DNA of 22,869 nucleotides from a virus: IMG/VR virus record IMGVR_UViG_3300021425_000206, positions 1-22,869 of that record, one strand, 5' to 3'. Below are positions 672 through 20,748 of this stretch, piece after piece. The notes below the pieces were generated by a model that was given only the letters and a program-made list of their open reading frames with translations, was not told the origin of the DNA and searched no databases. Position numbers and translations under genes: made by a program. How positions within the stretch are numbered: position 1 is the first letter of the stretch; the number at the start of each line of letters is the position of its first letter.

Positions 672-3600
672 ATGGCTGTTGGTCGCATATCAGGTCCGCT
701 CTTGAAGTCTAATTTGATCCGTAATGGGATCGATCTAGCCTTTGAGACAGACTTACTATATCTAGATGTTAATAATCAGCGTATTGGTATTAAAAATGCT
801 TCACCTGAGCACGAATTAGACGTAACTGGTACTACACGTACAACAAATTTAATTGTAGACACTAATTCAGATATTGCCGACATTAACATACAAGGCAATA
901 CAATATCTTCTAATACTCAATATTTAAATCTTGGTACTTTTGATAATGTAGTGTACCAAAACAAAGCTCGCATTGATAGTATTGACATAGAGGGCAATAC
1001 TATAACTACAAATAATTCAAATGCAAATTTAGAACTTCGTCCTAACGGAACAGGTACTGTAGACGTTCATAGTGATTTAAATGTTGATGGAAATGTATAC
1101 GTCACAGGTAATATTACCGCAGACGGTAATGTTACTATTGGTGATCAAGATACTGACAATATTTCATTCAGTGCTGAAATTGCGTCAGATTTAATTCCCG
1201 ATGCACACATAACATATAACTTAGGTACACCTACCAAAAAATGGCAAGACATTTGGGCAAATACTGTTACTACTGAAAGCCTTGCAGTAGGAGATTTAGA
1301 AGTTGACGGCATTGATTTAATTTTACGGCAAGGAAATATATACTATGTTGCTGAAAACGGCAATGATACAGCCAGCGGTGATCATCCACAAGATCCTTAT
1401 GCTAGTGTAGAACAAGCATTAAGTGCTGCGACAGCAGGAGATACAGTCCATGTATATCCTGGTGTATATCAAGAAAACTTTCCATTAACTATTCCGGTTG
1501 GCGTAACACTCAAAGGACATAGTTTGCGTAGTGTTATGATCAAACCAAATAGTGGTTACGAATACAACGATGCATTTTTATTAAATGGCGAAACTACTAT
1601 TGAAGATATTACTATTAGCGGATTTTATAGCGGTAGTAAATTATACGAAGTAACACAAATTGATAACGCAACAACTTTAAGAATTAATGTTGGTACTGCT
1701 CCTTTTGCACACACTTATGTTAGTGGTGGTACAATTAGTGCTGACGATAGCACATCATTAATTGCTAACGTCTCAAATGCAGTTTACGATCACACAACAG
1801 GTGAAGTTGTTATAACAACAGATGTAGCACATGATACATATGTTGGAGCAAACTTATTATTCAGCGGTTTAGTTTATAGTTGCAACGGCGGTAACAGAAC
1901 ATTCCCAGACAATGGTTATGCTTTCCGTTTTGCAACAGATTACGAAGTAACTACACGTTCGCCGTATATTAAAAACATAACTGTTATAACAGAAGGAACT
2001 AGCGTAGCAGCAGGAACAAATTCAGCAGATGATCCAAGAGGATTTAATGCAGGTGACGCTGGTAAAGGTGCATACATTGACGGTGCATATGCAACTGCTA
2101 ACTCTAAAGAAGCAAGTATGTTGTTCCACTCAGCGACATTTATTACTCCAGGTGTAGATGCAATTACTTGTACAAACGGTGTTAGAGTAGAATGGCTGAA
2201 CTCATTTTCTTACTTTGCTAATAGAAGTTTTTACTGTTTTGATAGCAATGACGGTAAGTACGGAGATGGTAAAACACGTATTAGACTAGGTGGAATTACC
2301 GGAACATTCCAAGCAGGCGATCAAGTAACATTTACGTCAACAGATGCTTCTACAACAGTAGTAGTAGATGTCGAATCAGTGGACGGAGATATTCTTGTTA
2401 TTGACGGTAAAGATGACAGTTTTGTAGGTTTTGACTTTACTCCACAGAGTATTGTTGCAACCACAGGATCAGGTGCAACCGCAACAAGTATAGAAAATTA
2501 TGACGTAAAAGATTTTGGTGCAGAAGTACGTATGATAGGATCTGCTAGTGTATATGGTAATTACGGTATTTGGGGTGATGGCCCGGGCGTAATTGTATAT
2601 GCTATAGGTCATAACATGGCGTATATAGGCAACGGAAAAGAAGTAACAAATGATCCAGAAACTGTAGTTCAAGCAAATGAAATTATAGAATTAAATGATG
2701 CTAAAATTCGCTACAATACTGTAGACCAACAAGGCGATTTCCGTGTAGGAGATCTCTTTTTTGTAGATCAGCAAACTGGTAACGTAAGTTTTAATAGTAC
2801 AAACTTTACTATCAATAGTGCTAATGGTTTAACTATTACCGACGGTGCTGACACTACAATTATCAAGGCAGATATGATTGACACAGGTAATTTGCGCCTA
2901 AGTGGAAATACACTCTCTAGTTTATCAGGCGATGTTAACATTGTCTCAGCAAGCGATAATATAAATTTAAACAATAATGTTAATATAACAGGAAATTTAG
3001 ATGTTACTGGTGACGTAACAATTGGCGGTAATATAACTATTGGCGACCAAGACACAGATACTATCCAATTTGTTGCAGGCATAGATTCTGATATTATTCC
3101 TAGTACAGATAGTGTTTATAGTTTAGGACTAGAAACTCGTATTTGGAGTAATTTGTATGTCAATCAATTTAATGTTGACGGAATAGAAATACGTGACAAC
3201 TACATTCAAACTGTAGAGTCTAATGCTGATTTAGAATTACGTGCAAACGGTACAGGAGAAATTCTTGTACCTACAAATAATGTACAAATCGATAACAATT
3301 TAACAGTTAGCGGAAATTCAAACTTGCAAAGTACAACGGTCACAGGTACTTTAACTCATACAGGTACATATACGCAAACAGGTGACACTACAGTCACCGG
3401 CAACTTCACAGTCACTGAAGATTTAGATGTTACTGGAGCAGCGCAGTTTGAAGAAATACTAGTTGATGACAACTATATAACAACTACAACTACCAATACA
3501 GACCTAGAACTACGTGCTGTAGGAACAGGCGAAGTATTAATTCCTAATAATGATGTTAACATTACTAATGATTTAATTGTAGGTGGTACAATTACCGTTG

Positions 3601-5308: not shown

Positions 5309-5725
5309 ATGACATATTATGTAGGTAATGATCCTAAAACAATTAACGATAGTTTTATTAAGCGTTACTTCTACGGACTTCGTAGGAACGACGACGGAGA
5401 ACTATTTTTAGTAAGACTAGACCAACTGTCAAGTGGTACAGATAATGTAGTTATTATAAACAATGAAGCATCGTCAGATGAAAACTTTCCAGATTTTGAA
5501 GAAGGTATTGATTTTTTGGACGGAATTGATGATGATCATAACATTGTATATGACAACTTAAATTATCCTCAGTTACGTTGGGATGGTAGATTTTTATTAT
5601 ATTATGTTGAACCGGAAACAGGACAATTTGTACAGGTAATTAACGGAAGTTATGATTTCCCAGCAAATATTTCAACTGACGGAACCCAATCAACATATGG
5701 CGGACAACGTGGAGCAGGTTACTAA
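5309..5725 (+). CDS. Hypothetical protein in structural operon (138 aa)
   Basis: ATG 5309 is preceded by GGAGG at 5295-5299, a strong Shine-Dalgarno site nine bases upstream and inside the end of the previous gene. The stop TAA at 5723-5725 overlaps the next ATG by one base (TAATG), so the two products are probably made coupled. The protein is acidic in the middle (DFEEGIDFLDGIDDDH), aromatic near the end (RWDGRFLLYYVEPETG) and finishes in a glycine-rich tail. I do not recognise a domain. Its location between a fibre gene and a giant adhesin gene suggests a structural or assembly role, for example an adaptor or partner of the neighbouring large protein. Confidence 0.85.
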   Translation: MTYYVGNDPKTINDSFIKRYFYGLRRNDDGELFLVRLDQLSSGTDNVVIINNEASSDENFPDFEEGIDFLDGIDDDHNIVYDNLNYPQLRWDGRFLLYYVEPETGQFVQVINGSYDFPANISTDGTQSTYGGQRGAGY

Positions 5726-8700
5726 TGGCTGAATTTAAACTAGAAAGATTTAAGTATTCATGGAAAGGTGCCTGGACCGGCAGCACCGAATATAAACGAG
5801 ACGACATTGTTAAGGTTGGAGGCAAGTCATATGTTTGTTTGATAACGCATACATCCGATGCTGACTTTAATGTTGATTTAGAAGCAGTTGTCCCAGGTTC
5901 ATCGCCTCCAATTCCGGCTCCTAAATGGATTGTAATGACTGACAGTAGATCGTTTGTAGGAAACTGGGCTACTGCAACTATCTATAATAGAGGTGATATT
6001 GTACAATTTGATGGATCTTTATGGCTTTGTATTGATGGCCATACCTCAACAGATTTTGCTTCAGATTATACAAATTGGGAAGTTTTTGCACAAGGTATAA
6101 AATTCAAAGCAGACTGGGGTACTAGTATAGGGTATGGACCAGGTGCGTTAGTAAAATACAACGGTATTGTATATAAATGTATTAATCCTCACACTTCGGC
6201 CGGATCTATAAACGATAATATTGATGATTGGGAAGTATTTTTTGATGGAGTTGAATACGCAGGCAATTTGCAACCTCTTACTACATACAGAGTCAACGAT
6301 TTAATTAAATTCGGCGGATCAATTTTTAAGGTTATAGAAGAATTTACTAGTAGCGAAGAAGGAATAGATGACACCAAAGTTCAAATGTTACTTCCAGGCT
6401 TCCAATTTGACGGCGACTGGGTATCAACAACAGCATATAGCATAGGAGATGTTGTTCGTTACGGCGGATATATGTTCTATTGTACTAATAATAACATTGG
6501 TATTGATCCTTTCGTGAGAGATGAAGATAGTTCAAACTATTGGTCAAAACTAGCACTAACATACAATTTTAGAGGAACCTGGTCTGAAGCAGCAGATTAT
6601 AAGCCAGGTGACATTGTACAACGCGGCGGCGATCTTTACCTTGCAAAATATGAAGTAGGCGGATACGAACAAGATGGATCTTCATTAGATTATCTTGACA
6701 CAGATGTTTGGGAAAAAATAGCGCCAGGTGCTGTCTGGGGGAAAGAAAATGCAGTAGCAGGATTAGGGTCCACCGACGGTACAACAGTCAGATATAATGT
6801 TGAATTTTCTTCACCTAGAGAAGGCGATATCGGCAACAAATATGTTATTGCTGGCGAATATAGAGCTACTTTGAAGTTTTATGAAAATTATACGTACATT
6901 TTTAATCAAGATGCTTTAGAAAATGTTTACTTTCCTAACGCTAACGGTACAGACCCTAATCCACACCCTTTAAATTTTAGTGCTGATAATCCTAACGGAG
7001 AGCGCGGTGGCGGAACTGGATTCTTAAGTGGTGTAACTTATTATCTAGATGATGAGATAGTAACGTACAGTGATTATAATGATACTACAAACTTTCAAGC
7101 TGCTACTAATCGTAGAGTAGAAATTTTTATAACTCCTCAAACTCCAAGAACATTGTATTATTGGTGTTGGAACCATGAAGACATGGGTAACACTATAACA
7201 GTTGACGATGAACCAGTGTTGTCAGGAAACTGGACTGCTGACAGAGAATACCTTGTAAATGAAGTTGTATACTACTTAGGAACAGCATATAAGTGTAATA
7301 CACAACACTTGTCGGCAGATGATAATTTTCCAGGAGACAATGGAAGCGGATATTACTATTGGGACACATACATTGAAAGAGGTTCCTCAGCAGGTTTAAA
7401 TGACAAAGGCGATTTACTAACGTACGGTTTAAACCGCACACTTGCAGGTGACCAATCTTCATTAGGTCCTGTTGCGTTACCAATAGGCGAAGAAAGAGAA
7501 GTATTATCTATAAACACTGACCAAGAAGCCTTTTGGAGAGCAAGAATACAAGATAGCGACACTATCTTTGTAGGTCAAAACGGTATGGACTTAGACGGAT
7601 ATGGTTTAAGTCCTGACAGGCCTTTTGCAACAGTAAAACATGCTTGTGAGTATGTAGAAGACAACTTCACTGCCGGAACACCAACAAAGGTTTATGTAGC
7701 AACTGGAAATTATATCGAAAGCGGTCCTATAAGTATTCCAGCAGGCTGTGTTGTAATGGGAGACGAACTTAGGGCAACAAAAATCACAGCAAACGATCCA
7801 TTTCCGGATTATGCGGGCGACGATTATATTACGAAAAAATTGTATATACAGCATTTGTTAACTTTTTTAGATGATCTTTTCCAGAATAGACTAGTAACTT
7901 CGACACCTGGTAATAATATTTTCCAAGATAGATCTGTACCAGCAGTTGGCTCTGACCCTACAGAAACTGTTGTTGAATTAATAGACTTCCATGACGAATA
8001 TTTAGATTACTGGTTAGGTTCCGGCATTGTAAACCCCACAGTGGTTGGAACTAACACTGCTACAGTTGATACAAGTTATTTAGATGCAGTTGACATATTA
8101 GAAAAAAACAAAAACTTTATTGCAAATGAAATCTTTGCTTGGCTAAGATTTACTCAACCAACCTATACCTTTGATGAAAATAGAATTCGGAGAGACATTT
8201 ATCATTTTTTAAGAGCTGTAAAACACGATTTAATTTATACAGGGAACCATAGAACTATTCTACATTGTAGAGACTTTAAAAACAAAGCATTAGGTAGCCA
8301 GTTTGATGATTTATTCTATATTAGAGATACAACCGGTGTAAGAAATTGTACTATTAATGGACTTAGAGGAACACTGAATCCTCCGGGCGTATTTGATTTG
8401 TATCAGCGTCCAACAGGCGGCGCATGTGTAAGTTTAGATCCAGGTTGGGGTCCAGATGACGAGAGTGTTTGGATTAAGAATAGATCACCTTATATACAGG
8501 GTGTAACTAACATAGGATCAAACTGTGTAGGACAAAAGATTGATGGATCTCTACACAACGGCGGACTAAAGTCTTGTACATCTAATGACTTTACTCAAGT
8601 CTTAAGTGATGGAGTAGGAGCATGGATTACTAACGGCGGAAGAGCAGAACTTGTATCTGTGTTTACGTATTATTGTGTAATCGGATATCTTGCAGACGAA

Positions 8701-11700
8701 GGCGGCACAATCCGTGCAACTAATGGAAATAACTCTTACGGAGTTTTTGGTGCTATTGCAGATGGTTTTGATCCAACCGAAACTCCGCAAACTGCGTTTA
8801 TAGATAACCAAAGTCAAAACGAAGCTACCGTTGAATCTGTCTTTGCAGGAGAATTTACTGATCAGATATTTGCTTTAGAGTACAACCATTGTGGAGAAGA
8901 ATACAGTCAAGCACAAGCAGATATTGTAGGTGCAGGAATTAATGCCTCAGTAGAGTTTAATGACTTTAGATCTGGCGGATTATATAATGTAAGAATTATT
9001 AACAGTGACGGATCGGGAGCAATAGGTGGTTCGGGCTATAGATTGCAAACCGGAAATGCACAAACTGGAGACAGCACCACTATAACATTAGATACTGGAT
9101 CTGGATTTGATGAAGTAGACATTTTAGGGCAAAGAGTAATTATTATATCAGGTGACGGAACAGGGCAATATGGATATGTCCAAGCGTATAATCCAGGTAC
9201 AAAAATTTGTACTGTATATAAAGAAAGCACCGATACAATAGGTTGGGACCATATTGTTCCAGGTACAACTATTGAAACATTATTAACTTCAAATACCCAA
9301 TATCGTATTGAACCGAGAGTTGTATGTGATCCGCCGCCAACAAGTGGAGCAGAATATTCTTTACCGCAAATTAGACCGTATGAGGATGTACAGTTTGGTC
9401 AAACAACCAGCATTTTTACGGGATTGCAAATGGACCCCGGTAGCGGTGAGGTAGACGGTATTGCTGCATCACCTGCTGTATTTAATTTGACACGCTCTGC
9501 CCAAACATATACAATAGAATTTACTGATGAAGGAGCTGGATATGTAGTGGGAGATCAAACTGTTATCAGCGGCTCTGCATTAGGAGGTACTGCAGGAGTT
9601 AATGATTGTACAATTACGGTAACAGCAGTTACTGAAGACAGTACAAATAGTATTGTAAGCGTTAGTGTATTAGGAACTGGAATTGGCGGAAAATATGTTG
9701 CAATTTCAGATCCAAACTTCTTTTCATACAGCGATAATGGCCAAACCTGGACAGAAGGAAACTTGCCTTTTGTAAGCACTTGGATCAAAGTAGTAAATGG
9801 TAATAATAGATTTTTTGCTTTGCCTACAGAGGAATCAGATCAGTTCGGTTTAAGTTTAGATGGAATAAATTGGGAAAGAAAAACTGTAGGTCCTTTAGCA
9901 GAATATAGCGATATAATTTACGGAGGCGGAAGATTTGTTGCTATAGCAGAAAATAGCAATACTACAATTTATAGTTCAGACGGCGATACTTGGGCACAAG
10001 GTACTATTCCTGATGATGCTTTAGGAGATTCAACAGCAAGCCAATGGCTTTATCTTGCGTATGGAAATGGCAAGTATGTTGCTGTATCAGGCAATGATAG
10101 TGCAAGTGCTACATCATCAGATGGAGATACTTGGCTAAGGCATACCGGATTACCAGCAGGGTCTAATGATTGGGTAGGCCTAGCATTTGGAAGAGGTAGA
10201 TTTGTTTTATTAGCTAGGACTGGGGAACTTTATTATAGCTTTGATGGAATAACATGGACAAGCGGCGGAGATATGGTAACTCAAGACGGTTCAACTTCTA
10301 TGAATTGGACAAAGTTAAAATATGAAAATGGTCTCTTTGTTGCATTATGTGATACAACTGGATTAACAATTGGCGCAGATGCTTCAGACGGAACTACAAA
10401 TTTCTTTGCAACATCGCAAGACGGTATTTTATGGACTGGAAAAACATTTCCAGGATTTAAAATTTGGGGCTGTATAACACATGGTCCTGCCGGATATGTT
10501 GCCCTTTCTAAAAATGCAACATTAAATGGTGTAGCAATAGTCCAGACGGGCGCAACTGCATTACTAAGATCAGATGTTGGATCTAATGCGTTTGATAGCG
10601 TCAAAATTTGGGATTGCGGCAGCGGCTATGATGCCGCAAATCCGCCTAGCATTACTGTTACTGCAAATCCAGATGTAACTGTAGAATTAGCTACAGAGCA
10701 AAGAATAGGGTCAACAGGAACTATTGGAGCTCCGGATTGGATAAACAGAGGTCAAGGATACAGATCTTCTAGCACTGTTGTAACACTAACAGGCAACGGA
10801 TATGCAGATAATTTTCCAGTTGGTAATGATGTAGTTTTAACCGGAGTAAGTGTTGTTCCAGGTCCTGGAGCCCAGATTAGATTCGATGTTATACCAGATG
10901 AAGAAACACCTGACCCAGACGATAAAAAACTTTTTGCAGCAGTGGGTATTGTTGATTTAGGAGATGACGGCACAGGAAATGGCACTAACAGAATACGACT
11001 AACAGTTAGTCCTAAAGTTGAACTTGCAGACAATGTGCCACATGAGTCGGAAGTAGAAATTAGATTAAGATACAGCCAATGTCGCATTTCAGGACATGAC
11101 TTCCTTGATATCGGTACCGGTAATTTTGAAGAAACTAACTATCCAGAAATATATGCCGATGGAAATTATTTTGTAAGCGCACCTGAAAATGAAGTTTACG
11201 AAGAAAACGGCGGCAGAGTATTCTACACATCAAGTGACCAAGATGGTAATTTTAGAGCAGGTGAATTGTTTAGTGTTCAACAGGCTACTGGTATTGTAAC
11301 AATTAGTGCTGAATTCTTTAATCTAGACGGATTAAGCGAACTTGCACTAGGCGGAGTAAGACTAGGTGGTTCAGGTGCAGTAGTAAGAGAATTTTCAACA
11401 GACGTAAACTTTACTGAAGATTCGAACAATGTTGTACCTACACAAAGAGCAATAATTACTTTCTTGGCTAACAGGCTATCAGAAGGCGGTTCTGAGTTAG
11501 AAACTAACCAGCTTACTGCTGGACGAGTATTATTAGGCGGCGAAAACAATGAAATTAGGCATTCTTTAGGCGGTATTGTAGAAATTCCAGTTTTAGCGAT
11601 ATTTGAAGGTACAGGAGATCCTTTGAATCCGCAAGATAGCGCACAAGTAAGTGGTTTAATGCAAGCATATCCACTTTATTTTAGAACGGTAGATGAATCT

Positions 11701-11709
11701 ATCCAGTAA
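5725..11709 (+). CDS. Giant modular adhesin / virion structural protein (1994 aa)
   Basis: ATG 5725 overlaps the upstream stop by one base. Residues 11-335 hold six tandem modules of ~50 aa patterned W-x-x-x-x-x-Y-x-x-x-D-x-V-x-x-G-x-x-Y-x-C-x-x-x-H-T-S, resembling CBM5/12 carbohydrate-binding modules; a seventh lies at ~497-550. Between modules 6 and 7 is a cupredoxin-like region (HPLNFS with His414, then Cys481, His484, Met487). A beta-helix starts at ~613 (IFVGQNG, GDELRATK) and resumes at ~843, with SLDPGWGPD at 903. It is broken by a helical insertion at ~690-842 holding one degenerate module, in which Ile821 sits at the Cys position. A GxGY-type module (~1250-1315) precedes six Asp-box-like motifs of the type SxDGxxW (about 1336-1570). 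The C-terminus has GHDFLDIGTGNF at 1790, DQDGNFRAGELF at 1838 and VVPTQRA at 1903. I infer a glycan-binding fibre or baseplate adhesin. It is a paralogue of the next gene. Confidence 0.92.
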   Translation: MAEFKLERFKYSWKGAWTGSTEYKRDDIVKVGGKSYVCLITHTSDADFNVDLEAVVPGSSPPIPAPKWIVMTDSRSFVGNWATATIYNRGDIVQFDGSLWLCIDGHTSTDFASDYTNWEVFAQGIKFKADWGTSIGYGPGALVKYNGIVYKCINPHTSAGSINDNIDDWEVFFDGVEYAGNLQPLTTYRVNDLIKFGGSIFKVIEEFTSSEEGIDDTKVQMLLPGFQFDGDWVSTTAYSIGDVVRYGGYMFYCTNNNIGIDPFVRDEDSSNYWSKLALTYNFRGTWSEAADYKPGDIVQRGGDLYLAKYEVGGYEQDGSSLDYLDTDVWEKIAPGAVWGKENAVAGLGSTDGTTVRYNVEFSSPREGDIGNKYVIAGEYRATLKFYENYTYIFNQDALENVYFPNANGTDPNPHPLNFSADNPNGERGGGTGFLSGVTYYLDDEIVTYSDYNDTTNFQAATNRRVEIFITPQTPRTLYYWCWNHEDMGNTITVDDEPVLSGNWTADREYLVNEVVYYLGTAYKCNTQHLSADDNFPGDNGSGYYYWDTYIERGSSAGLNDKGDLLTYGLNRTLAGDQSSLGPVALPIGEEREVLSINTDQEAFWRARIQDSDTIFVGQNGMDLDGYGLSPDRPFATVKHACEYVEDNFTAGTPTKVYVATGNYIESGPISIPAGCVVMGDELRATKITANDPFPDYAGDDYITKKLYIQHLLTFLDDLFQNRLVTSTPGNNIFQDRSVPAVGSDPTETVVELIDFHDEYLDYWLGSGIVNPTVVGTNTATVDTSYLDAVDILEKNKNFIANEIFAWLRFTQPTYTFDENRIRRDIYHFLRAVKHDLIYTGNHRTILHCRDFKNKALGSQFDDLFYIRDTTGVRNCTINGLRGTLNPPGVFDLYQRPTGGACVSLDPGWGPDDESVWIKNRSPYIQGVTNIGSNCVGQKIDGSLHNGGLKSCTSNDFTQVLSDGVGAWITNGGRAELVSVFTYYCVIGYLADEGGTIRATNGNNSYGVFGAIADGFDPTETPQTAFIDNQSQNEATVESVFAGEFTDQIFALEYNHCGEEYSQAQADIVGAGINASVEFNDFRSGGLYNVRIINSDGSGAIGGSGYRLQTGNAQTGDSTTITLDTGSGFDEVDILGQRVIIISGDGTGQYGYVQAYNPGTKICTVYKESTDTIGWDHIVPGTTIETLLTSNTQYRIEPRVVCDPPPTSGAEYSLPQIRPYEDVQFGQTTSIFTGLQMDPGSGEVDGIAASPAVFNLTRSAQTYTIEFTDEGAGYVVGDQTVISGSALGGTAGVNDCTITVTAVTEDSTNSIVSVSVLGTGIGGKYVAISDPNFFSYSDNGQTWTEGNLPFVSTWIKVVNGNNRFFALPTEESDQFGLSLDGINWERKTVGPLAEYSDIIYGGGRFVAIAENSNTTIYSSDGDTWAQGTIPDDALGDSTASQWLYLAYGNGKYVAVSGNDSASATSSDGDTWLRHTGLPAGSNDWVGLAFGRGRFVLLARTGELYYSFDGITWTSGGDMVTQDGSTSMNWTKLKYENGLFVALCDTTGLTIGADASDGTTNFFATSQDGILWTGKTFPGFKIWGCITHGPAGYVALSKNATLNGVAIVQTGATALLRSDVGSNAFDSVKIWDCGSGYDAANPPSITVTANPDVTVELATEQRIGSTGTIGAPDWINRGQGYRSSSTVVTLTGNGYADNFPVGNDVVLTGVSVVPGPGAQIRFDVIPDEETPDPDDKKLFAAVGIVDLGDDGTGNGTNRIRLTVSPKVELADNVPHESEVEIRLRYSQCRISGHDFLDIGTGNFEETNYPEIYADGNYFVSAPENEVYEENGGRVFYTSSDQDGNFRAGELFSVQQATGIVTISAEFFNLDGLSELALGGVRLGGSGAVVREFSTDVNFTEDSNNVVPTQRAIITFLANRLSEGGSELETNQLTAGRVLLGGENNEIRHSLGGIVEIPVLAIFEGTGDPLNPQDSAQVSGLMQAYPLYFRTVDESIQ
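5755..6729 (+). repeat. Six tandem CBM5/12-like modules (1994-aa protein)
   Basis: Modules of roughly 50-60 aa share an entry W, a Y, a D-x-[IV]-V strand, a G-x-x-[YF] turn and an exit W. The YxC...HTS signature is kept in modules 1-3 (WLC in module 2) and degrades in modules 4-6. A seventh module lies apart at about 7213-7374, after the cupredoxin-like region. The CBM5/12 resemblance is by pattern only. Confidence 0.65.
6790..7200 (+). other. Cupredoxin-like domain within the 1994-aa protein
   Basis: Residues ~356-492 contain GEYRATLKFYENYTYIFNQ, then PHPLNFS (His414), a long loop, and TLYYWCWNHEDMGN (Cys481, His484, Met487). His plus C-x-x-H-x-x-M near the end of a beta-sandwich resembles the type I copper ligand set of plastocyanin-like proteins. 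The paralogue at 11755 lacks this region. Fold and metal binding are inferred. Confidence 0.5.
9715..10440 (+). repeat. Six Asp-box-like repeats (beta-propeller-like) in the 1994-aa protein
   Basis: Motifs SDNGQTW, SLDGINW, SSDGDTW, SSDGDTW, SFDGITW and SQDGILW recur, each usually preceded by a GxGRFVAxx-type strand. The spacing resembles sialidase / BNR propeller blades. I see no basis for naming a catalytic site. Confidence 0.65.
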
Positions 11710-11754: not shown

Positions 11755-14700
11755 ATGGCAGAGTTTAAATTAGGAAGAATTAGATTTGTTTGGAAAAATG
11801 AATGGGTAACTTCCACAACATATTATAAAGATGACGTTGTAAGATTCGGCGGAAAAATTTATATCTGTGTCGAAGGACACGAATCATCCCCGGACTTTTT
11901 TACCGATTTTGATATTGTTCCACCAAAATGGAATCTTGTATCAGACGGACAATCATGGAAAGGTACTTGGACAACTAGTACAAGCTATATTATTGATGAT
12001 ATTGTTTCATACGGTGCGCGGTTATATATTTGTACAGCTAATCATACTTCACAAGCCCTTGCTGCCGATGGCTTAGAAGCAGATATTGCAAACTGGACAG
12101 TGTTTGCTGAAGGATTAAACTGGACAGGTGACTGGACAGTAGAAACAAGTTATAAAATTAATGATGTTGTAAAATATGGTTCATCTGTGTACGTGGCCAA
12201 TACAGCACATACATCACAAGCTCTTGCTGCTGACGGGCTAGAAGCGGATATTGCAAACTGGGATTTATTCAACCAAGGAATTGACTACAAATACGAATGG
12301 GTCACAGGTACTAGATACAAAGTAAATGATGTTATTAGATACGGCGCAGGACTATGGGTATGTACTACAGCACACACTGCAAGTGCAGCATTTGGCACAG
12401 ATAGTGCTAATTGGGAAAAATTTGTTGAAGGATTCCAATTTGAAGGCGAATGGGACGCATATACTCCATACCAAGAAGGTGATGTAGTACGTTACGGAGG
12501 CAATACTTATATTGCCAAAACATCAAACGTTGAGAAAAAACCTGCACAAGAAGCAGTTGACTGGGAAATTTTTTCGCAAGGTATTAGATTTTTAGGTGAA
12601 TGGGGAGAAGATAGCTCTTCATATGAATATAGGGTAGGTGAATTAGTAAGACAAGGTGGATATACATATATTTGTATTCAAGATCATTCTAATCAACAAC
12701 CTCCTAATGCAACATATTGGAACAGATTAAACAGCGGACTTGACTGGCGTGGCGAATGGCTAGATGATCAAGAGTACTTCTTAGGTGATGTAGTGCGTTA
12801 CGGTGCAAATACATATGTATGTGTAGGAGGACACATTTCAGAAGGAGACGATTTTAGCACAGAAACTAAAATCGAACCAGGTGGCGGAGCACAAAACTCT
12901 CGTCCGGATTTAGATACTTCTGGAACTTATTGGAATATTCTCGCAATAGGTAAAGAAGAAGATGTACTTACTACTACAGGAGACTTGGTATATTATACAG
13001 GATCTGCTCCTGCTAGACTTCCAATCGGAACTGATGGACAAGTTTTAACTGTTGGAGCAAATAATTTACCTGAATGGGCAACATTAGGTTCTGCAGAAGA
13101 TGTTTATTGGGTAGCTGAACATGGTGTTGATAGTCCTTCTCCAATTTATGGTAAAACTATTGACAGGCCCTTTAAAACTATCCGTTATGCTTGCGAGCAA
13201 GTAGAAAAAGGAGCAAAAAATCCAAATGCAGCAAGGTTATTAGAACTTAACAGACAATTTATTCAAAGAGAAATTGTAGAGTGGACTGATTACCAAATAA
13301 CAAATAACATTGCGCCTTTCACTACTAGTTTTGCATATCAAAGTGCAAAATGCGAAAGAGATATGGGCTTTATTGTTGATGCTTTAATTTGGGATATCAC
13401 ACACGGCGGCAATGCTAAATCGAGAGAAGCTGCACTAAGTTATGTCAACGACACTACAGGATCACCGTATCTAACACAAAAAGACGAAACAAAGGCAAGT
13501 ATTAATTACGGCTTGACTGTAATTGAAGCTGTGTTAAATCAAACAGCACCTAGCACAAACTATCAAGTTGCAAATGGAGATAATTCAACTGCTATTGTAG
13601 AGCAATATACAGAAACAGGGTTGCAGGCAGAAACTGTACTGTCAGATTGTACAGCATTAGTAAAAATCATTACTGATGCAATCACAGCAGGAGTAGCAGA
13701 TGACATACCTGCAGAAGACTGGCCTACTACACTTATTAGAGTTTCAACAGGTAGATATTACGAAGTACTACCGATAATTGTTCCTAGAGAAACATGTGTA
13801 ATGGGAGACGAACTACGTGCAACAAATGTAAATGCTAGAACAAAGTATAATCAAGCTGATCAATTAACTCCAGCTTCTGATGCAAAATTTAGTTTTGAAG
13901 GCATTAAGAGGATGGAAAAAGTTTTAAATGATGTTGTTAGAGGTTATACTGTAGAAAAAACTACAGGCAACACTTTAACACAAGTTTCAGAATATCCATT
14001 AGCTGAAGCACCTCAAGAAACTGCTGTAGGAAAACTTGCAAGAGTTATTCGTAGAAATATTGACTTCGGAGTCAATCAAAAACTAGAATACGAACATATT
14101 GCTATCGATCAATTTTCAGACAGCGCAGACGGTTACGGTAGAGATTTAATAAGGGCAAACCAACAATTTATTTTAGACGAAATGATGGCATATCTAGCAG
14201 ACGCGGATGACGGCTATCCAGATCTAAAATACAGCCGAACTAAGTGTCGTAGAGATGCAAGTTTCATCATCGATTCTGTATTATATGATTTAACTTATGG
14301 CGGCAACTGGCAAAGTGTAGAAGCAGGAAAAGCATATTTTGATGGCGCATCTAATAACCTTCAAATTAATTCTACTGAAAAAACAGCAACACTTGCAGCA
14401 TATGCTTATTTAAAATCGTTAATGCAAACTGTATGTAGAAATATTACTGTTAGTCCTGTGTATTCAGAAACAACTCAGGTTGTAAACCCAGATGCTGGTA
14501 ATGCAGGAACATCAAACACTATTGGTAGTTTGATGGACGATGTGATTACTGTTATAAGAGACGGGTTTGATAATGCACCAACCATTACCTATCCAAGCAC
14601 AGCAAATGCTGATAGCGACTTAGTTGCTGCATCTACTGCAATGACAAACGCAAGTAGTCAGATTCAAATCGATACTATCGATTTTATTAGCAAATACTTT

Positions 14701-17700
14701 GGTAATTTTAACTACGACAGTGCAAAATGTCGTAGAGATTTAGATATTATAATTTCTGATCTAGCTTTTGACGTTGCCTTAGGAACAAACTTTAACGCTG
14801 TTTATAACGGTATTGCTTATACCAGACCTAATGCGTATATTGTAAAGCAGAATCAATTAGCAGCAACAATAGGCGCTATCAACTTCGCTAGAGATACACT
14901 TGAAGATGAATTAAGCGATTCTACAGCTATTACTAGACACCTTGCTGCCTATAACGAAGTAACTGACATTTTAGAAAATGGAAGCGTAGGCACTGCAGAT
15001 CCAGGAGACGGCGTTGTAGATGCTCTTAGTTTCCCAGCACCGGCTACTTTGCCTAGCACAAATGCAGAAGATGCAAAGAATCAACTTGTTGCAAACAGAG
15101 CATATATCCAGGCAGAAATTGTTGCTTGGATCGACGACCAAATTGCAGCTAATGCTAGTAATCCAGTAAGCCCTTGGTATCAGTTTGAATATAATTCTAC
15201 AAAATGTTCAAGAGATACAGGATATATTGTTGATGCAATGTGCTTTGATATTTTATATGGCGGTACACTAGCAACTACTCGTGTTGCACAATCTTATTTT
15301 GGCGACGATGGCACAGCATACCCAGCAGAGCAAACTGAACAAACATCCTTAGCATATGGTAGATTGTCAGCAGTCTTAGACGAAATTGTACGAGAAGTTA
15401 ATGTAACTGAAAGTTCAGGAAACGGCTTAACACAAGACACTTCAGGAACAGCAGCTACATCTACTGAAGGTAACGCTCTTATTGCTAAAATGGCAATTAT
15501 TACTAACGCACTAGATGCAGGGAACTTGGATAGTTTACCTGCTATTGTATCACCAGACTTATCAGCACTATCAGTAAGTGCTACACTTCAAACTGAAAAG
15601 TCAGCAATTGATAGTGCAGAAGCACAAACTATCTTAGACACAATTCAGTATATTAACACTACATTTAATACTGATTTTGTTTATAATCAAGCAAAATGTA
15701 TGAGAGATGTTAACATTATTATCGACTCTGCAAGATATGATATGATGCTCCAGACAAACTTTGCAAGTATAATTGCAGCATACTCGTATTTGAGAGCTCC
15801 AGCAGCAGAAGTATTAGGAGCCCAAAAAGATGCAACTATTGCTGCTTTAGAATTTGCTCGTACAAAAGTTATCGACTCAGTAAATACAAATCCAGGTGCT
15901 ATTGTTAGCATTAATAATACTTGGGATTTTGTAACAGATGTAATTTTTGGCGGTGATGCAAATGGAAGCAATAGACAAACTGACGAAAATCATAACTATA
16001 GCGCAATTAGACATTTAGAATTAAACAAGGATTTTATTGTACAAGAAGTACACTCTCATGTCACAGAGCACTTTAAAACGTCAATCACTGAAACTGTAAA
16101 TGTTGGTGGTATTTTAAATACAAGCGATACAAGTTGGTTAAAACCATATATGCCTGTGAAGTTTGTAAATAAAGACGACTCAACTAACAGTGTAACAAAT
16201 GCAGGATTAGTTGAGGATACAACATACTACGTTAAAGATATTTTAAGTAGCACTACATTTACTTTAACAGACTCAGTAGGCGGAACGTTAGTTACTGTAC
16301 AGGAAGCTCTTCCTGTATTTGACTATGATAAAGTTAAATGTTCAAGAGATACAGGATATATTTTAGATGGTGTTGCGTATGACGTTGTATTAGGTACTAA
16401 CTATAATAGTGTATATAATGGTATTTCTTATCAAAGAGCAAGCGGTGCTACTGTTACTGCTGATCAATTAACACAGACTATTGCAGGTATTAATCATGCT
16501 AAGTCTAAGGTTGGTTATATCAACCAAGTAAGAACAAGTACAACTGCTCAAACTAGAGCAGATGCAGGCTTTGACGAAGTAATTGACGTACTACAAAATG
16601 GTACAGTCAGCGTATCTGTCCCAGGAGACGGCGTAGCAGATACACTAAGTTTTCCTGCCCCAACAGGTGCAACAGCAAATACACAAAATGCTGTAGCGCA
16701 GCTTATAGCAAATAGAGCATTCCTACAAGCGGAAGTTACGCAGTATATTGCCGATAACTTCCCAGCACTTGTTTACGATAGTGCAAAGTGTGAACGCGAT
16801 GTTGGATATATTGTTGATGCGCTATGCTACGACATTATGTATGGCGGAAATAGTGCAAGTGTTAGAGCAGCACAATCATACTTTGTTGGCGCAGCAAGCC
16901 AATTAGGTGCTGGACAGCAACTTGCAACAGTTGGAGCATATGACTATCTAGCAAGTGCAGCAGGATTTGTCATTGTTGAAACTACTGCAGATGTTGGCAC
17001 AGGGTTCCCACTACAGGTAGGTGTAAGTCAAGATACAAGTGGAACAGCAGCAAGTGCAACTGAACAAACACTAGCACAAGATCTTATTCAAATTACCGAA
17101 GATGTTATCAATGACGGTAACCTAGACGGCTTACCGACTGTAGAATATCCGGACGTTAGTTGGGCACCACAAGCACTACAAGATGCACAAGTTGCTATCT
17201 ATGCTAACAAAACAGATATCCGCAGAAGTGTTATTAGATTTTTAGATGATACATATGCACAATTATTTACTATGGAAAAGGCATATGATTATAATGTTGC
17301 ACTTTGTAGTAGAGACATAAAAGCATACCTTGATGCAATCAAATGGGATATACAATATCCACAAGAATTTAAACGTGAATATAGATTTGCCGGAACTACT
17401 GATTTAACTCTTTACTTACCGGGCTGTTATAAGTCTAAACTTGCAGCAAGGTATTATGTAAACGCAGTAAACGGATCTCAAGAAGAAGATTTCTACTACA
17501 TGAGGAACAATACTGGACTACGTTTGCAAACATTAGACGGACTAAGAGGCGATTTAGGACCTGCAAATGCTTACGGTACAAGTAGACCGACAGCTGGTGC
17601 ATATGCAAGTCTTGACCCAGGTTGGGGTCCAGCAGATAAACGTGCTTGGATTAGCGCAAGATCGCCTTATATGCAAAACTGTTCTTGTTTCGGTTATGCA

Positions 17701-20700
17701 TGTATCGGACAAAAAATCGACGGTGCACTACACGACGGCGGCAACGACTCAATGGTATCAAACGATTTTACTCAATTGATGGGCGACGGCATCGGTGCTT
17801 GGATCACGAATAATGGTAGAGCAGAACTTGTGTCGGTGTTTACCTACTATTCACACGTTGGATACCTTGCAGAAAATGGCGGCAGAATACGTGCAACGAA
17901 TGGTAACAACTCATACGGAGACTTTGGTAGTATTGCTGAAGGATTCGACGCTGAAGAAACTCCAGTAACCGGCGCAGTCGATAACGTTAGCCAATATAAT
18001 GCTGTGATATCAAATGTTGTAACAGACCAAGATAAAATTTTAGTAGCAGAATTTAGTCATGCAGGAAACGACTATACAAAGGCACAGATTGATTTCTTTG
18101 GCGCAGGTGATAATGAAGAAGTTGTTGCAAACGAATTTAGAGATGACAGTATATTTGAAGTAAAACTATTAGATTTAGACGACTCTAGCGGAGAAATTGG
18201 AGGAGACGGATTTACTGTTGTACAAAACACTGCACAAGGCGGTACAACAACAAGCATTTCTCTTGCAGCAACAGACGGAGCAAGTTCTACAGCATACCCC
18301 GGCATGAAAGTTATTTTATCAGGTGGTGCAGGAATTGGCCAATATGCATTAATAGATACATATGATTCCGGAACAAAGATTGCTACGGTTGTAAGAGAAT
18401 CAGACGGAGCAGCAGGTTGGGATCATTTTGTTCCGGGTACTGCTATCGTTGCACCTAATAGTTCTACAACATATGAAATAGAACCAGCTCTTGATATTGC
18501 TGCTCCTCCTAAGTCAAACGGCACGATTACTTTACCATCAAGTTCTACTTGGGTAGATGTAGATTATGTTGAAACATCAGCACAATACACAGGTATTTCA
18601 GGTACATCAAGTGCTAACGGATTGAGTGCTACGTTTGATGTTACTAGAACAGGAAGCAAATACTATGTAAGTATTAATGCTGGCGGATCAGGATACGTTA
18701 GACTAGAAACAGTAACCATTGCCGGTACAAGTTTAGACGGTGCAAGTCCAGCTAACGATCTAGTTATTACTGTTACTAGTGTAGATACAAACGGTGCTGT
18801 TACTGGATTAGATATAAGCGGTGTTGGACAAAAAGGTAAATTCCTTGCAATTAGTAACACAACTACTACAGCAGCATTAAGTATAGACGGTGAAACGTGG
18901 ACAGCGGAAACATTGCCAACAGCAGGATCAGGAACCTGGTCAAGTATTGCTAGTGGTCTGCTAGATGATGGTTCATCAGACTATTTTGTAAGTAGTGTAG
19001 TTGTTGTTGCAGATGGTAGCAACAATGTAGCATACAGTGCGGATGCAGATACTTGGAGTAGCACAACACTTCCAGGAGGATTGAACACTGGTGCAGAAAC
19101 AAGAGTTGCATTTGGTAATGTAGCACTTAATGATAACAGATATGTTGTTATTAGTTCAGCAGACCAAGATGTTGCATACTCACAAGATGCTGGTGCTACT
19201 TGGACACTTAATACAAATGCTTTACCTGGTATTGGTTATGATGCTATTGCATTCGGACAAGGTATATTTGTAGCTGTTCAAAGTGGTTCTACTAATGCAG
19301 TTTGGTCAGAAGACGGAATACTTTGGAATAGTATCTCATTACCTAGCGCAGCAGCTTCTGCTACAGATATTGCTTTTGGTAATAACCATTGGGTAATATT
19401 AGGAAGTACTAATGGAACTATGTATTCATTAGATGGTAAAAATTGGACAAACGGATCTTTAGCATTGCCATTAACTGCTACTGAACGTAAAATTGCATAT
19501 GGACAGGGCGTTTTTGTAATTACTTCAGACGATACAAATGAAGTGCAATGGTCGCAGGATGGTATTTACTGGCAAGCATATACAGTCACTACTATAACAG
19601 GTGGGTATAATGCTTGTGCGTTTGGTAATCCTAATAGAACAGGAAAGTTCGTTCTACTACCCAATGCAGCAGGAACCGGAGGTGCATACGCTAGACTCGG
19701 AGCCAAAGCAATAGCTCGTGTAGGTGTAGCAAGTGAGAAAATTTTCGAAATAAGACTACAGGAGCCAGGTTCGTGTTATGATCCTTTAAATTTACCTGCT
19801 GTAACTGTCACAGATCCTGCTAACATTTATGATATTAATGTTAGAGTGCGTGTAGGTAGCGGAGTTCTTGCTAATCCAACCTACAACAATAGAGGTAGTG
19901 GATATCTTGAAGCAACAGCAGACATTAACGATAACAACTCTAATGGTGGCGCAGACTTTATACAATTTGGATCATTTATTGCTGTTAAGAGACTAACAGC
20001 AAGACCAGTTCCAGGATCTAACGTAGTGTTTAGCGGATTGTCTACAACATATAAACTTGTAAATGTTGTTAGTTTTGTAGGCGACGAAGATGGCTCATAT
20101 ACAGCATTTTTAAACGTGTCTCCAGAGGTAACAGTTGCAGATGAAATTACTGACGAAGCGTCAGTAACTTGTAGAATACGTTATTCACAGGTACGTTTAA
20201 CTGGACACGACTTCCTTGATATTGGTACAGGTAATTTTACTAAAACAAATTACCCAAATACGCCTCTTGTTGATCCTGACCCAGCAGACGAAACAAAAGA
20301 GTTTAACGGTGGACGAGTGTTCTTTACTGCTACAGACCAAGATGGTAACTTTAGAGTTGGTAACTTGTTTAGCGTTGAACAGGCAACTGGTGTTGCTACA
20401 CTTGATGCTGAAGCATTTAACATTGCAGGTCTACAAGAACTATCGCTAGGCGAAGTAACACTAGGCGGTAATAGTGCAGCAGTTAACGAATTTAGTACTG
20501 ACCCGTTCATGACTGCAAACAGCGACAATGTTGTTCCAACACAAAGAGCTGTGAAAGCATACATTGAAGCACAAATTGGTGGTGGTGGTGCGTCCTTGAA
20601 CGTAAACACAGTCACAGCTGGAGATATATTCATTGGTTCGAATATTATAACTACAGCATCAGGTTCAGCGATAAATATCACTGGAACTATGAACTTTACT

Positions 20701-20748
20701 GGTGGTATCACAGGTTACCCACTAGCAATTAACTACATGTTGAGATAA
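11755..20748 (+). CDS. Giant modular adhesin / virion structural protein with expanded helical repeats (2997 aa)
   Basis: ATG 11755 follows GGAG at 11741-11744. The protein parallels the 1994-aa protein upstream. Residues 10-399 hold seven CBM5/12-like modules. LPIGTDGQVL leads to a beta-helix starting at ~449 (DVYWVAEHG, DRPFKTIRYACEQ) and continuing at ~660-692 (VSTGRYYEVLP, CVMGDELRAT). It resumes near 1880 with SLDPGWGPADK at 1952, RSPYMQ and RAELVSVFTYY. Two insertions in the helix carry eight K-C-x-R-D modules (L-C-S-R-D in the last) with Cys at 533, 831, 992, 1151, 1315, 1529, 1679 and 1851. A GxGY module (~2285-2360) and six Asp-box-like motifs (~2376-2600) follow, then the shared C-terminal block with GHDFLDIGTGNF at 2817. 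The cupredoxin-like region of its paralogue is absent. I infer a very large host-recognition fibre or adhesin; no enzymatic function is claimed. Confidence 0.92.
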   Translation: MAEFKLGRIRFVWKNEWVTSTTYYKDDVVRFGGKIYICVEGHESSPDFFTDFDIVPPKWNLVSDGQSWKGTWTTSTSYIIDDIVSYGARLYICTANHTSQALAADGLEADIANWTVFAEGLNWTGDWTVETSYKINDVVKYGSSVYVANTAHTSQALAADGLEADIANWDLFNQGIDYKYEWVTGTRYKVNDVIRYGAGLWVCTTAHTASAAFGTDSANWEKFVEGFQFEGEWDAYTPYQEGDVVRYGGNTYIAKTSNVEKKPAQEAVDWEIFSQGIRFLGEWGEDSSSYEYRVGELVRQGGYTYICIQDHSNQQPPNATYWNRLNSGLDWRGEWLDDQEYFLGDVVRYGANTYVCVGGHISEGDDFSTETKIEPGGGAQNSRPDLDTSGTYWNILAIGKEEDVLTTTGDLVYYTGSAPARLPIGTDGQVLTVGANNLPEWATLGSAEDVYWVAEHGVDSPSPIYGKTIDRPFKTIRYACEQVEKGAKNPNAARLLELNRQFIQREIVEWTDYQITNNIAPFTTSFAYQSAKCERDMGFIVDALIWDITHGGNAKSREAALSYVNDTTGSPYLTQKDETKASINYGLTVIEAVLNQTAPSTNYQVANGDNSTAIVEQYTETGLQAETVLSDCTALVKIITDAITAGVADDIPAEDWPTTLIRVSTGRYYEVLPIIVPRETCVMGDELRATNVNARTKYNQADQLTPASDAKFSFEGIKRMEKVLNDVVRGYTVEKTTGNTLTQVSEYPLAEAPQETAVGKLARVIRRNIDFGVNQKLEYEHIAIDQFSDSADGYGRDLIRANQQFILDEMMAYLADADDGYPDLKYSRTKCRRDASFIIDSVLYDLTYGGNWQSVEAGKAYFDGASNNLQINSTEKTATLAAYAYLKSLMQTVCRNITVSPVYSETTQVVNPDAGNAGTSNTIGSLMDDVITVIRDGFDNAPTITYPSTANADSDLVAASTAMTNASSQIQIDTIDFISKYFGNFNYDSAKCRRDLDIIISDLAFDVALGTNFNAVYNGIAYTRPNAYIVKQNQLAATIGAINFARDTLEDELSDSTAITRHLAAYNEVTDILENGSVGTADPGDGVVDALSFPAPATLPSTNAEDAKNQLVANRAYIQAEIVAWIDDQIAANASNPVSPWYQFEYNSTKCSRDTGYIVDAMCFDILYGGTLATTRVAQSYFGDDGTAYPAEQTEQTSLAYGRLSAVLDEIVREVNVTESSGNGLTQDTSGTAATSTEGNALIAKMAIITNALDAGNLDSLPAIVSPDLSALSVSATLQTEKSAIDSAEAQTILDTIQYINTTFNTDFVYNQAKCMRDVNIIIDSARYDMMLQTNFASIIAAYSYLRAPAAEVLGAQKDATIAALEFARTKVIDSVNTNPGAIVSINNTWDFVTDVIFGGDANGSNRQTDENHNYSAIRHLELNKDFIVQEVHSHVTEHFKTSITETVNVGGILNTSDTSWLKPYMPVKFVNKDDSTNSVTNAGLVEDTTYYVKDILSSTTFTLTDSVGGTLVTVQEALPVFDYDKVKCSRDTGYILDGVAYDVVLGTNYNSVYNGISYQRASGATVTADQLTQTIAGINHAKSKVGYINQVRTSTTAQTRADAGFDEVIDVLQNGTVSVSVPGDGVADTLSFPAPTGATANTQNAVAQLIANRAFLQAEVTQYIADNFPALVYDSAKCERDVGYIVDALCYDIMYGGNSASVRAAQSYFVGAASQLGAGQQLATVGAYDYLASAAGFVIVETTADVGTGFPLQVGVSQDTSGTAASATEQTLAQDLIQITEDVINDGNLDGLPTVEYPDVSWAPQALQDAQVAIYANKTDIRRSVIRFLDDTYAQLFTMEKAYDYNVALCSRDIKAYLDAIKWDIQYPQEFKREYRFAGTTDLTLYLPGCYKSKLAARYYVNAVNGSQEEDFYYMRNNTGLRLQTLDGLRGDLGPANAYGTSRPTAGAYASLDPGWGPADKRAWISARSPYMQNCSCFGYACIGQKIDGALHDGGNDSMVSNDFTQLMGDGIGAWITNNGRAELVSVFTYYSHVGYLAENGGRIRATNGNNSYGDFGSIAEGFDAEETPVTGAVDNVSQYNAVISNVVTDQDKILVAEFSHAGNDYTKAQIDFFGAGDNEEVVANEFRDDSIFEVKLLDLDDSSGEIGGDGFTVVQNTAQGGTTTSISLAATDGASSTAYPGMKVILSGGAGIGQYALIDTYDSGTKIATVVRESDGAAGWDHFVPGTAIVAPNSSTTYEIEPALDIAAPPKSNGTITLPSSSTWVDVDYVETSAQYTGISGTSSANGLSATFDVTRTGSKYYVSINAGGSGYVRLETVTIAGTSLDGASPANDLVITVTSVDTNGAVTGLDISGVGQKGKFLAISNTTTTAALSIDGETWTAETLPTAGSGTWSSIASGLLDDGSSDYFVSSVVVVADGSNNVAYSADADTWSSTTLPGGLNTGAETRVAFGNVALNDNRYVVISSADQDVAYSQDAGATWTLNTNALPGIGYDAIAFGQGIFVAVQSGSTNAVWSEDGILWNSISLPSAAASATDIAFGNNHWVILGSTNGTMYSLDGKNWTNGSLALPLTATERKIAYGQGVFVITSDDTNEVQWSQDGIYWQAYTVTTITGGYNACAFGNPNRTGKFVLLPNAAGTGGAYARLGAKAIARVGVASEKIFEIRLQEPGSCYDPLNLPAVTVTDPANIYDINVRVRVGSGVLANPTYNNRGSGYLEATADINDNNSNGGADFIQFGSFIAVKRLTARPVPGSNVVFSGLSTTYKLVNVVSFVGDEDGSYTAFLNVSPEVTVADEITDEASVTCRIRYSQVRLTGHDFLDIGTGNFTKTNYPNTPLVDPDPADETKEFNGGRVFFTATDQDGNFRVGNLFSVEQATGVATLDAEAFNIAGLQELSLGEVTLGGNSAAVNEFSTDPFMTANSDNVVPTQRAVKAYIEAQIGGGGASLNVNTVTAGDIFIGSNIITTASGSAINITGTMNFTGGITGYPLAINYMLR
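11782..12951 (+). repeat. Seven tandem CBM5/12-like modules (2997-aa protein)
   Basis: Seven units of ~50-65 aa show the W...Y...D-x-V-x-x-G-x-x-[YW]-[VI]-[CA] pattern, usually followed by H-x-S/A and an exit W. Modules 2 and 3 are 55 aa apart and share the identical residues TSQALAADGLEADIANW, encoded by different codons. This array aligns with the six-module array at the start of the preceding gene. Confidence 0.65.
13228..17390 (+). repeat. Eight alpha-helical KCxRD modules inserted in a beta-helix
   Basis: Modules average ~160 aa. They share a leading helix of the type L-x-x-N-R-x-[FY]-[IL]-Q-x-E, then F-x-Y-x-x-x-K-C-x-R-D-x-x-[YF]-I-[VIL]-D, then either YGGN...A-x-S-Y-F or LGTN[FY]N[AS]VYNGI. 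Cys-to-Cys distances are 298, 161, 159, 164, 214, 150 and 172 residues. A short beta-helix segment (about 13732-13830) lies between modules 1 and 2. I know of no assigned function for the module. Confidence 0.75.
18870..19570 (+). repeat. Six Asp-box-like repeats (beta-propeller-like) in the 2997-aa protein
   Basis: SIDGETW, SADADTW, SQDAGATW, SEDGILW, SLDGKNW and SQDGIYW recur, several preceded by GQGxFV strands. The second has Ala for Gly. Copy number equals that of the paralogue, consistent with a closed six-bladed propeller. Any glycan-binding role is inferred. Confidence 0.65.
20670..20677 (+). promoter_or_regulatory. Possible late promoter-like element inside a coding end (GATAAATA)
   Basis: GATAAATA, identical to the element at 552-559 but followed by T, lies in the 3' end of the 2997-aa gene, 84 bases before the next ATG. 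It is in frame as codons for Ala-Ile-Asn-Ile, so it could be chance in AT-rich coding DNA. If active it would transcribe the small protein, S74 fibre and LamG genes. Confidence 0.2.

Follow-up and report, generated by a model that had tools for sequence, protein, structure and literature searches.

Phycobiliprotein-like modules multiplied in pairs within a tail fibre protein of a cyanophage-type virus

Three large genes and the layout of the modules

The subject of this study is a helical protein module, recognisable by the motif KCxRD, in large structural proteins encoded by the IMG/VR virus record IMGVR_UViG_3300021425_000206. The stretch analysed, hereafter the window, is the entire record of 22,869 bases, and all coordinates given for it refer to its plus strand. 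It contains three large open reading frames (ORFs), at 672-4973 (1433 amino acids, aa), 5725-11709 (1994 aa) and 11755-20748 (2997 aa). PHROG matches identify the 1433-aa protein as a baseplate wedge subunit and both larger proteins as tail fibre proteins; the match to phrog_9851 (tail fiber protein), with an E value of 1.5e-198, demonstrates homology to annotated tail fibre proteins. A tblastn search for fibre homologues returned 232 phage records, mostly of cyanophages, with Pelagibacter phage Mosig ranking first.

A profile of the KCxRD module detected eight copies in the 2997-aa protein (starting at residues 502, 805, 969, 1117, 1293, 1486, 1656 and 1822), one in the 1994-aa protein (residue 798) and none in the 1433-aa protein, which bears out the copy numbers of 0, 1 and 8 given in an earlier note on this DNA. 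That note had also placed one module of the 2997-aa protein ahead of the sequence GDELRAT and seven behind it, and this is indeed the arrangement around GDELRAT at residue 684. Its further claim, that the copies lie at homologous positions in all three proteins, held for the two fibre proteins, which align on both sides of the insert (24% identity over 942 columns for residues 1-845 of the 1994-aa versus 1-855 of the 2997-aa protein, and 37% over 1233 columns C-terminal of the insert). The 1433-aa protein, however, is tied to them in this region by phrog_9851 only (E 6.4e-19, residues 219-581, at 1326..2414, where the module profile has no match); BLAST against the other two proteins matched another region and nothing within the part sharing phrog_9851. 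The pectin-lyase-like beta-helix of that note is a candidate fold here, the sole Pfam match being sub-threshold (PF12708, E 0.0018, in the 1994-aa protein).

Module 1 of the 2997-aa protein (13192..13725, KCERD), placed by the module profile and landmarks, is a complete, class-A-like bundle between strand 1 (VYWVAEHG) and strand 2 (LIRVSTG..MGDELRAT), the latter extending over 13726..13830 as far as GDELRAT by landmarks and homology. Behind it, sequence compared by eye revealed the tail half of a permuted basal bundle without KCxRD (13888..14076, end approximate), corresponding to helices 277-299 and 325-344 in the model of a four-module relative, L023. There follow module 2 (class A, KCRRD, 14131..14610), module 3 (class B, KCRRD, 14611..15060), module 4 (class A, KCSRD, 15061..15549), module 5 (class B, KCMRD), over which a match to the Phycobilisome family PF00502 extends (15505..15900), and module 6 (class B, KCSRD), whose part beyond an internal insert lies at 16327..16677; the classes of these modules were assigned from a module tree and from A/B profiles. 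The short insert of module 6, between its head helix and its KCxRD helix (16099..16326, end approximate), is probably beta, judging from the sequence and from predicted strands 685-768 in its L023 equivalent. In some relatives, a similar insert is seen in module 2 or in the final module. Module 7 (class A, KCERD) occupies 16633..17124, and module 8, the last (LCSRD, 17164..17454), found with the module profile, comprises the head and KCxRD half of the basal permuted bundle. Between the first and last modules, the order is therefore ABABBA.

In the AlphaFold model of L023 (28 sequences), every module is a helical bundle made of head helices, a long KCxRD helix and two tail helices; block values of the predicted local distance difference test (pLDDT) are mostly 70-90 for the strands ahead of the insert and below 50 for most of the core behind it, so a beta-helix that continues across the insert, as the earlier note proposed, is no more than a possibility. 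With this model and the sequence as guides, we read the main insert as a series of complete bundles enclosed by the two parts of a split one, its tail half at the start and its head and KCxRD half at the end. In the 1994-aa protein, the single module (7822..8292, ends approximate), defined by the profile match and by sequence, would on our reading have the same permuted order as this basal bundle: tail half first, then the head and the KCxRD-equivalent helix. It lies behind the segments IFVGQNG ... MGDELRAT (7555..7788, ends approximate), which were delimited by landmarks and homology to the 2997-aa protein. The split basal bundle would thus take up an even number of complete bundles at its natural ends.

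Fold, sequence homology and attachment motif of the module

Module 7, modelled alone with AlphaFold2 from 60 sequences, reached a pLDDT of 89.7 and a predicted template modelling (TM) score of 0.87. With VIA-align, 49 of the 50 rows listed for this model were phycobiliproteins, with Z scores from 16.2 (3.1 Å over 146 residues) down to 14.3; the remaining row was 8u0f, with only 'Bacterial fluorescent protein' as its title. Foldseek likewise listed phycobiliproteins in 49 of 50 rows, together with one globin (best E 6.5e-3, probability 1.00). For the L023 model, a structural search listed 50 entries, all of them phycobiliproteins, phycobilisome parts or the engineered smURFP (Z 15.2-11.9), and class A, class B and module 1 each matched phycobiliproteins at Z 13-15, as for class B (Z 13.5, 2.7 Å over 126 residues, 19% identity) and for the range 58-216 equivalent to module 1 (Z 14.1). 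Both models therefore display the phycobiliprotein/globin fold by which the bilin-binding globin superfamily is recognised.

The sequence evidence points to the same family. The PF00502 match of the window has an E value of 5.2e-5 and a score of 17.3 bits over profile positions 11-142 of 155; at E<=0.01, the family was also detected in 20 of the 50 related records. In a control set of 14 genomes, four matched at E 10, with the cut-off passed in one only, and at E<=0.01 the sole match was Synechococcus elongatus. Cultured phages above the cut-off included S-PM2 (38.8 bits, E 1.1e-9), S-RIM44 (23.2 bits) and DSL-LC03 (27.6 bits). When 14 named phage records were searched in six frames, 11 matched PF00502 at E<=0.01 and five exceeded the cut-off, with no match in ACG-2014d, P-SSM2 and Mosig; ACG-2014d does match the module profile despite this, and in the fibres of P-SSM2 and Mosig the core is present without any match to that profile. 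In the PDB, an initial sequence search gave seven weak matches, three of them phycocyanins (E 0.02-0.09). With the class A profile (E<=10), 13 of 14 matches were to phycocyanin alpha (best E 0.02), KCxRD being aligned on KCxRD, column for column, and with the class B profile the best two of six matches were also to phycocyanin alpha. Scanned singly (E<=10), nine of the 60 class A members and seven of the 58 in class B matched PF00502, the top Pfam family by number of members, and some single class B members scored higher with unrelated families.

These computations show that the module has the phycobiliprotein fold and remote sequence homology to PF00502, and its homology to phycobiliproteins is well supported. 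The earlier note, which knew of no described function for it, had called it a helical module; it is a phycobiliprotein-like globin, and a generic helical repeat lacking relatives is ruled out by the PF00502 matches in the window and in S-PM2, together with the structural matches. Since the score in the window lies below the PF00502 cut-off, its modules are not filed as light-harvesting phycobiliproteins.

The KCxRD motif coincides with CXRD, the bilin-attachment motif of phycobiliproteins, of which CXQD is the photoglobin variant, according to the accessible part of PMC10151467. CXRD, and with it the motif expected of bilin-binding globins, is present in all eight modules of the 2997-aa protein and absent from that of the 1994-aa protein, which reads IRRD and contains no Cys at this position. 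Over 277-278 modules, the motif letters were C in 90%, R in 83% and D in 97%; by position and class, the Cys was kept in 54/55 first, 53/53 last, 77/84 class B and 74/86 class A modules, and by contrast in just 5 of the 50 distinct modules of the 1994-aa type. As the module persists in this type although most copies are without the Cys, the residue appears to be dispensable for the fold, which suggests that it is retained elsewhere for attachment. These figures were taken from counts other than alignments A4 (60 of 94 members chosen) and A5 (58 of 71), in which the Cys is invariant by construction because members were picked by the pattern C.[RQK]D. In 12 proteins or protein fragments of cultured cyanophages, CxRD was found in 34 of 47 module hits, where K or Q in place of R was accepted as well.

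Copy number and pairing among relatives

Relatives were collected by scans of viral contigs (loci L003-L099, some on shared contigs), from which 80 stretches were kept out of at least 587. Module totals were taken from proteins with the first module after residue 350, which numbered 70, or 53 once near-duplicates were removed. Among these 53 non-redundant complete proteins of the 2997-aa type, 27 had four modules, 22 had six, three had eight and one had 12, and none had an odd total. Proteins cut at the 5' end were excluded, as were the five-module ORFs L011, L034 and L045; each is the second part of a split gene, the first ORF of which had been truncated or discarded as a duplicate. Split genes were scored as the sum of both ORFs, as applied to 8 of the 22 six-module proteins. 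Profile hits less than 115 residues apart were merged when the first contained only a head and the second only a core, which altered L076, L077, L080 and L092 from 5, 6, 5 and 5 modules to four each; a short-spaced pair in L019 was kept as two modules, CxRD being present in both.

In a tree of 112 modules, many forks of which are poorly resolved, modules grouped by position, with the first, the second and the last each forming groups across relatives, and the last grouping with the single module of the 1994-aa type. Because the same positions recur in relatives, insertion of the modules is not a matter of chance. Extra modules arrive as one B plus one A, giving AB, ABAB, ABBA (in one protein), ABABBA (the window) and ABABBBBAAA (L019); the BBBAAA run in L019 would fit nesting. 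With profiles for classes A and B, trained on seven proteins labelled from this tree, inner modules were balanced between A and B in 52 of the 53 proteins, whereas 20,000 label shuffles gave 23.1 balanced proteins on average and never more than 38; the proteins in this comparison are related by descent and are not independent events. Outside the training set, balance was found in 45 of 46 proteins, the exception, L076, being off by 0.3 bit. The two classes thus occur in equal numbers, with totals differing by two or multiples of two, and from the even totals and the A/B balance it follows that copy number among orthologues of the 2997-aa protein grows in A/B pairs. On a poorly resolved tree of the core, module number changes at least 10 times.

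The 1994-aa type behaves differently: all 60 proteins that the core score places in it have exactly one module, 83-109 residues ahead of the core. These 60 belong to a mixed set of 69 single-module proteins, the other nine being four proteins cut at the 5' end, whose cores are clearly more similar to the 2997-aa type, and five for which the scores lie closer together. The accordion growth proposed in the earlier note is accordingly real within the orthologues of the 2997-aa protein (4, 6, 8 and 12 modules), whereas stepwise growth across the three paralogues is ruled out by the constant single module of the 1994-aa type.

Gene fission is a further variation: 8 of the 53 non-redundant proteins of the 2997-aa type are split, with at least four changes on the same poorly resolved tree. 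The fission point lies inside module 1 (L009 2012-2018, L012 16044-16049, L013 16054-16059, and similarly in L015 and L011), where the first ORF ends in GGGY followed by the stop codon and the ATG of the second ORF comes a few bases on. The last codons of the first ORF are GGAGGAGG in L011, L012, L013 and L015, resembling a ribosome-binding site, and GGCGGGGG in L009.

Cyanophage context and interpretation

A query from the module region of S-PM2, which contains flanking sequence, matched 376 of 50,697 phage records (306 Synechococcus, 55 cyanophage, 14 Prochlorococcus and one marine virus), the matches being counted by query and not by module. CxRD modules are present in the giant 'short tail fiber' proteins of T4-like cyanophages (S-PM2 T4-GC 734, S-RIM44, S-RSM4, S-WAM2 and S-CAM1), which differ from the window in fibre context, show low identity to it and are annotated only as tail fibre or hypothetical. 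The S-PM2 record also contains, inside its giant fibre gene, an annotated cluster of tRNA genes (L107 10509-15336).

These fibre genes are linked to a gene of a bilin-lyase family, cpeT, whose phage product was reportedly described by Gasper et al. in 2017 as a T-type phycobiliprotein lyase. CpeT is an enzyme and in this differs from the modules. By tblastn, cpeT was found in at least 66 phage records, a lower bound because a hidden Markov model (HMM) detected CpeT in S-RIM2, syn9 and P-RSM1 as well. Of the best 60 cpeT records, 54 also appeared among the top 60 for a query from a segment of the S-PM2 giant fibre outside the modules; in each of these listed pairs, cpeT and the fibre segment share a strand, and the segment begins 533-4639 bases downstream of cpeT (median 2635). 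The others, S-SCSM2R, P-HM1 (two records), P-HM2 and MED4-213 (two), had no listed fibre match. In S-RIM44 (L102 10438-10977) and S-PM2 (L107 5905-6432), cpeT is situated just ahead of the giant fibre gene, the cpeT-linked fibre carried modules in all five phages examined (those named above), and CpeT was detected by HMM in 10 of the 14 named records, most of which were chosen for their modules. This synteny may derive in part from shared descent of the genomes.

Several known systems resemble the modules in part. With phycobiliproteins (phycocyanin, phycoerythrin and allophycocyanin), they share the globin-type fold, CXRD on the equivalent helix and two subunit-like classes in equal numbers, but they are embedded in a structural protein in arrays of 4-12 and have about 10-20% identity to solved structures; outside a phycobilisome, they would be unlikely to harvest light. 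The bilin domain of ApcE (PDB 4xxk, 4xxi), the core-membrane linker of the cellular, non-viral phycobilisome, is likewise a phycobiliprotein domain within a large multi-domain scaffold protein, with TM scores of 0.58-0.66 to module 7. Bilin biosynthesis-associated globins (BBAGs) and photoglobins are also divergent bilin-binding globins found outside phycobilisomes, with CXRD or CXQD, yet are stand-alone proteins of bacteria, with links to genes for heme oxygenase or bilin reductase; as far as the accessible part of that paper goes, BBAGs with CXRD bind bilins without lyases, and phages are mentioned only for PcyX and PcyA (PMC10151467).

Taken together, we put the probability at roughly 0.6 that the KCxRD module belongs to the phycobiliprotein superfamily as a divergent globin that binds bilin, paired and pigment-bearing, in the tail fibre of a T4-like cyanophage-type virus. 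Classes A and B would then pack as pseudo-heterodimers resembling the alpha and beta subunits of phycobiliproteins, and the pairs could stack into an arm projecting from the fibre shaft and leading back to it through the permuted basal bundle. The conserved Cys would carry a covalently bound bilin, added by a host lyase, by a phage lyase or by self-assembly, so that the arm would display a pigmented, phycobiliprotein-like surface on the virion; candidate uses of the pigment are stability, host-surface binding and light sensing during adsorption. Such lateral arms might also extend receptor reach.

A number of observations weigh against this interpretation. In the structural comparison, Foldseek gave zero matches for module 7 at E<=0.001. 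At the sequence level, the PF00502 score of the window is below the curated cut-off (17.3 versus 22.2 bits), as in all 50 related records (0/50 above it), the profile matches in the PDB are weak, and hhalign against shallow phycocyanin alignments gave 85% and 62% for the alpha subunit and 3% and 7% for the beta subunit. Within class A, Gln replaces Arg in 26 of 86 modules and another letter replaces Cys in 12 of 86. Among related virus records of the window, which are possibly fragments, neither CpeT (0/18) nor CpeS (0/22) nor psbA (0/18) was found, and, with psbA absent, a cyanobacterial host is presumed from kinship. In many cyanophages, the module is found in proteins other than the cpeT-linked fibre, among them gp7-like ones and further structural proteins; CxRD is missing from some of these modules, including all three in the syn9 stretch covered. 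In the accessible part of PMC10665884, four marine strains of the S-CREM2 cluster encode an S-type lyase and the long tail fibre was detected by mass spectrometry; no module was found in the S-CREM2 long tail fibre.

Part of this evidence could be explained without any pigment, if a phycobiliprotein-type globin captured from the host served solely as a rigid spacer or adhesin arm, its Cys, Arg and Asp persisting through the fold or through slow decay. We regard this as possible, if distinctly less probable than a bilin-bearing module: it accommodates the 1994-aa type, which keeps the module though the Cys has been lost in 45 of 50 distinct copies, as well as the several modules without CxRD in structural proteins of marine cyanophages and the lack of a lyase in the available relatives of the window. 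The Cys, however, seems dispensable for the fold in that same type and is nevertheless present in nearly all modules of the positional classes, despite identities of 20-67% to the first row of each alignment; a purely structural role moreover leaves both the motif and the synteny with a lyase gene unexplained.

The homology to host antenna proteins, and the fact that matches in the phage collection are nearly all to cyanophages, might alternatively reflect mimicry during infection, with modules that sequester bilins or lyases or contact phycobilisomes and whose presence in the virion is secondary. We consider this improbable, since the modules are part of large proteins whose annotations read tail fibre, baseplate or structural protein, an odd location for a soluble decoy, and are gained as pairs at recurring positions inside the fibre. 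Least credible of all is a chance likeness between convergent helical bundles. Helical repeats can indeed reach high structural scores, and with helical folds a Z value below about 13 may carry little meaning; here, nearly all structural matches listed belong to one family with Z above 14, the PF00502 matches of S-PM2 and of the window provide independent sequence evidence, and the motif aligns column for column with that of phycocyanin alpha.

If the bilin-binding reading applies, modules with an intact Cys would be candidate acceptors for phage bilin enzymes and candidate sensors for light-dependent adsorption. S-PM2 itself is presumably among the phages that adsorb in this way. Adsorption is light-dependent for several cyanomyoviruses, and the advantage of pebS and pcyA is called unclear for phages of Prochlorococcus, in the accessible part of a 2010 review (PMC2984593). 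A stronger version, in which the fibres are pigmented, bilin-loaded paired arms sense light or change shape and so make adsorption light-dependent, and the fibre is the missing acceptor for CpeT-like enzymes, seems doubtful to us as a whole. The wider interest lies in the reuse of an antenna-type fold as a modular viral building block that grows by domain pairs. Full-text literature searches, assessed by titles and the starts of abstracts and with subscription literature mostly outside their reach, found no paper on phycobiliprotein-type modules in virion proteins; databases may already contain the match without comment, given that the S-PM2 protein scores above the Pfam cut-off.

Some further features were recorded in the window and in other phages. 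The N-terminal part of the 2997-aa protein (11755..12924, end approximate) consists of CBM_5_12 carbohydrate-binding repeats (PF02839, E 2.2e-28), of which Pfam identified seven stretches here and six in the 1994-aa protein, mostly N-terminal. Behind the insert, the conserved fibre core of the 2997-aa protein is found at 17566..18174 (alignment A1, 16 sequences, mean column identity 72%). Module-bearing gp7-like and other structural proteins are very large in S-RIM2, P-HM2 (gp7), syn9, ACG-2014d, ACG-2014f and P-RSM1 (L108-L113), with annotated genes of roughly 12-20 kb and several module copies without CxRD. The S-CREM2 long tail fibre (L197 1060-15975) matches the CusF copper-binding family with 70.7 bits over the whole protein, no single stretch being over threshold. 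Finally, a contig with a 100% identical protein extends beyond the end of the window (L003 14720-18523), and PHROG matches of genes on it point to a tryptophan halogenase and a 2OG-Fe(II) oxygenase, while a further gene has a partial match to a PHROG for a DNA methyltransferase.

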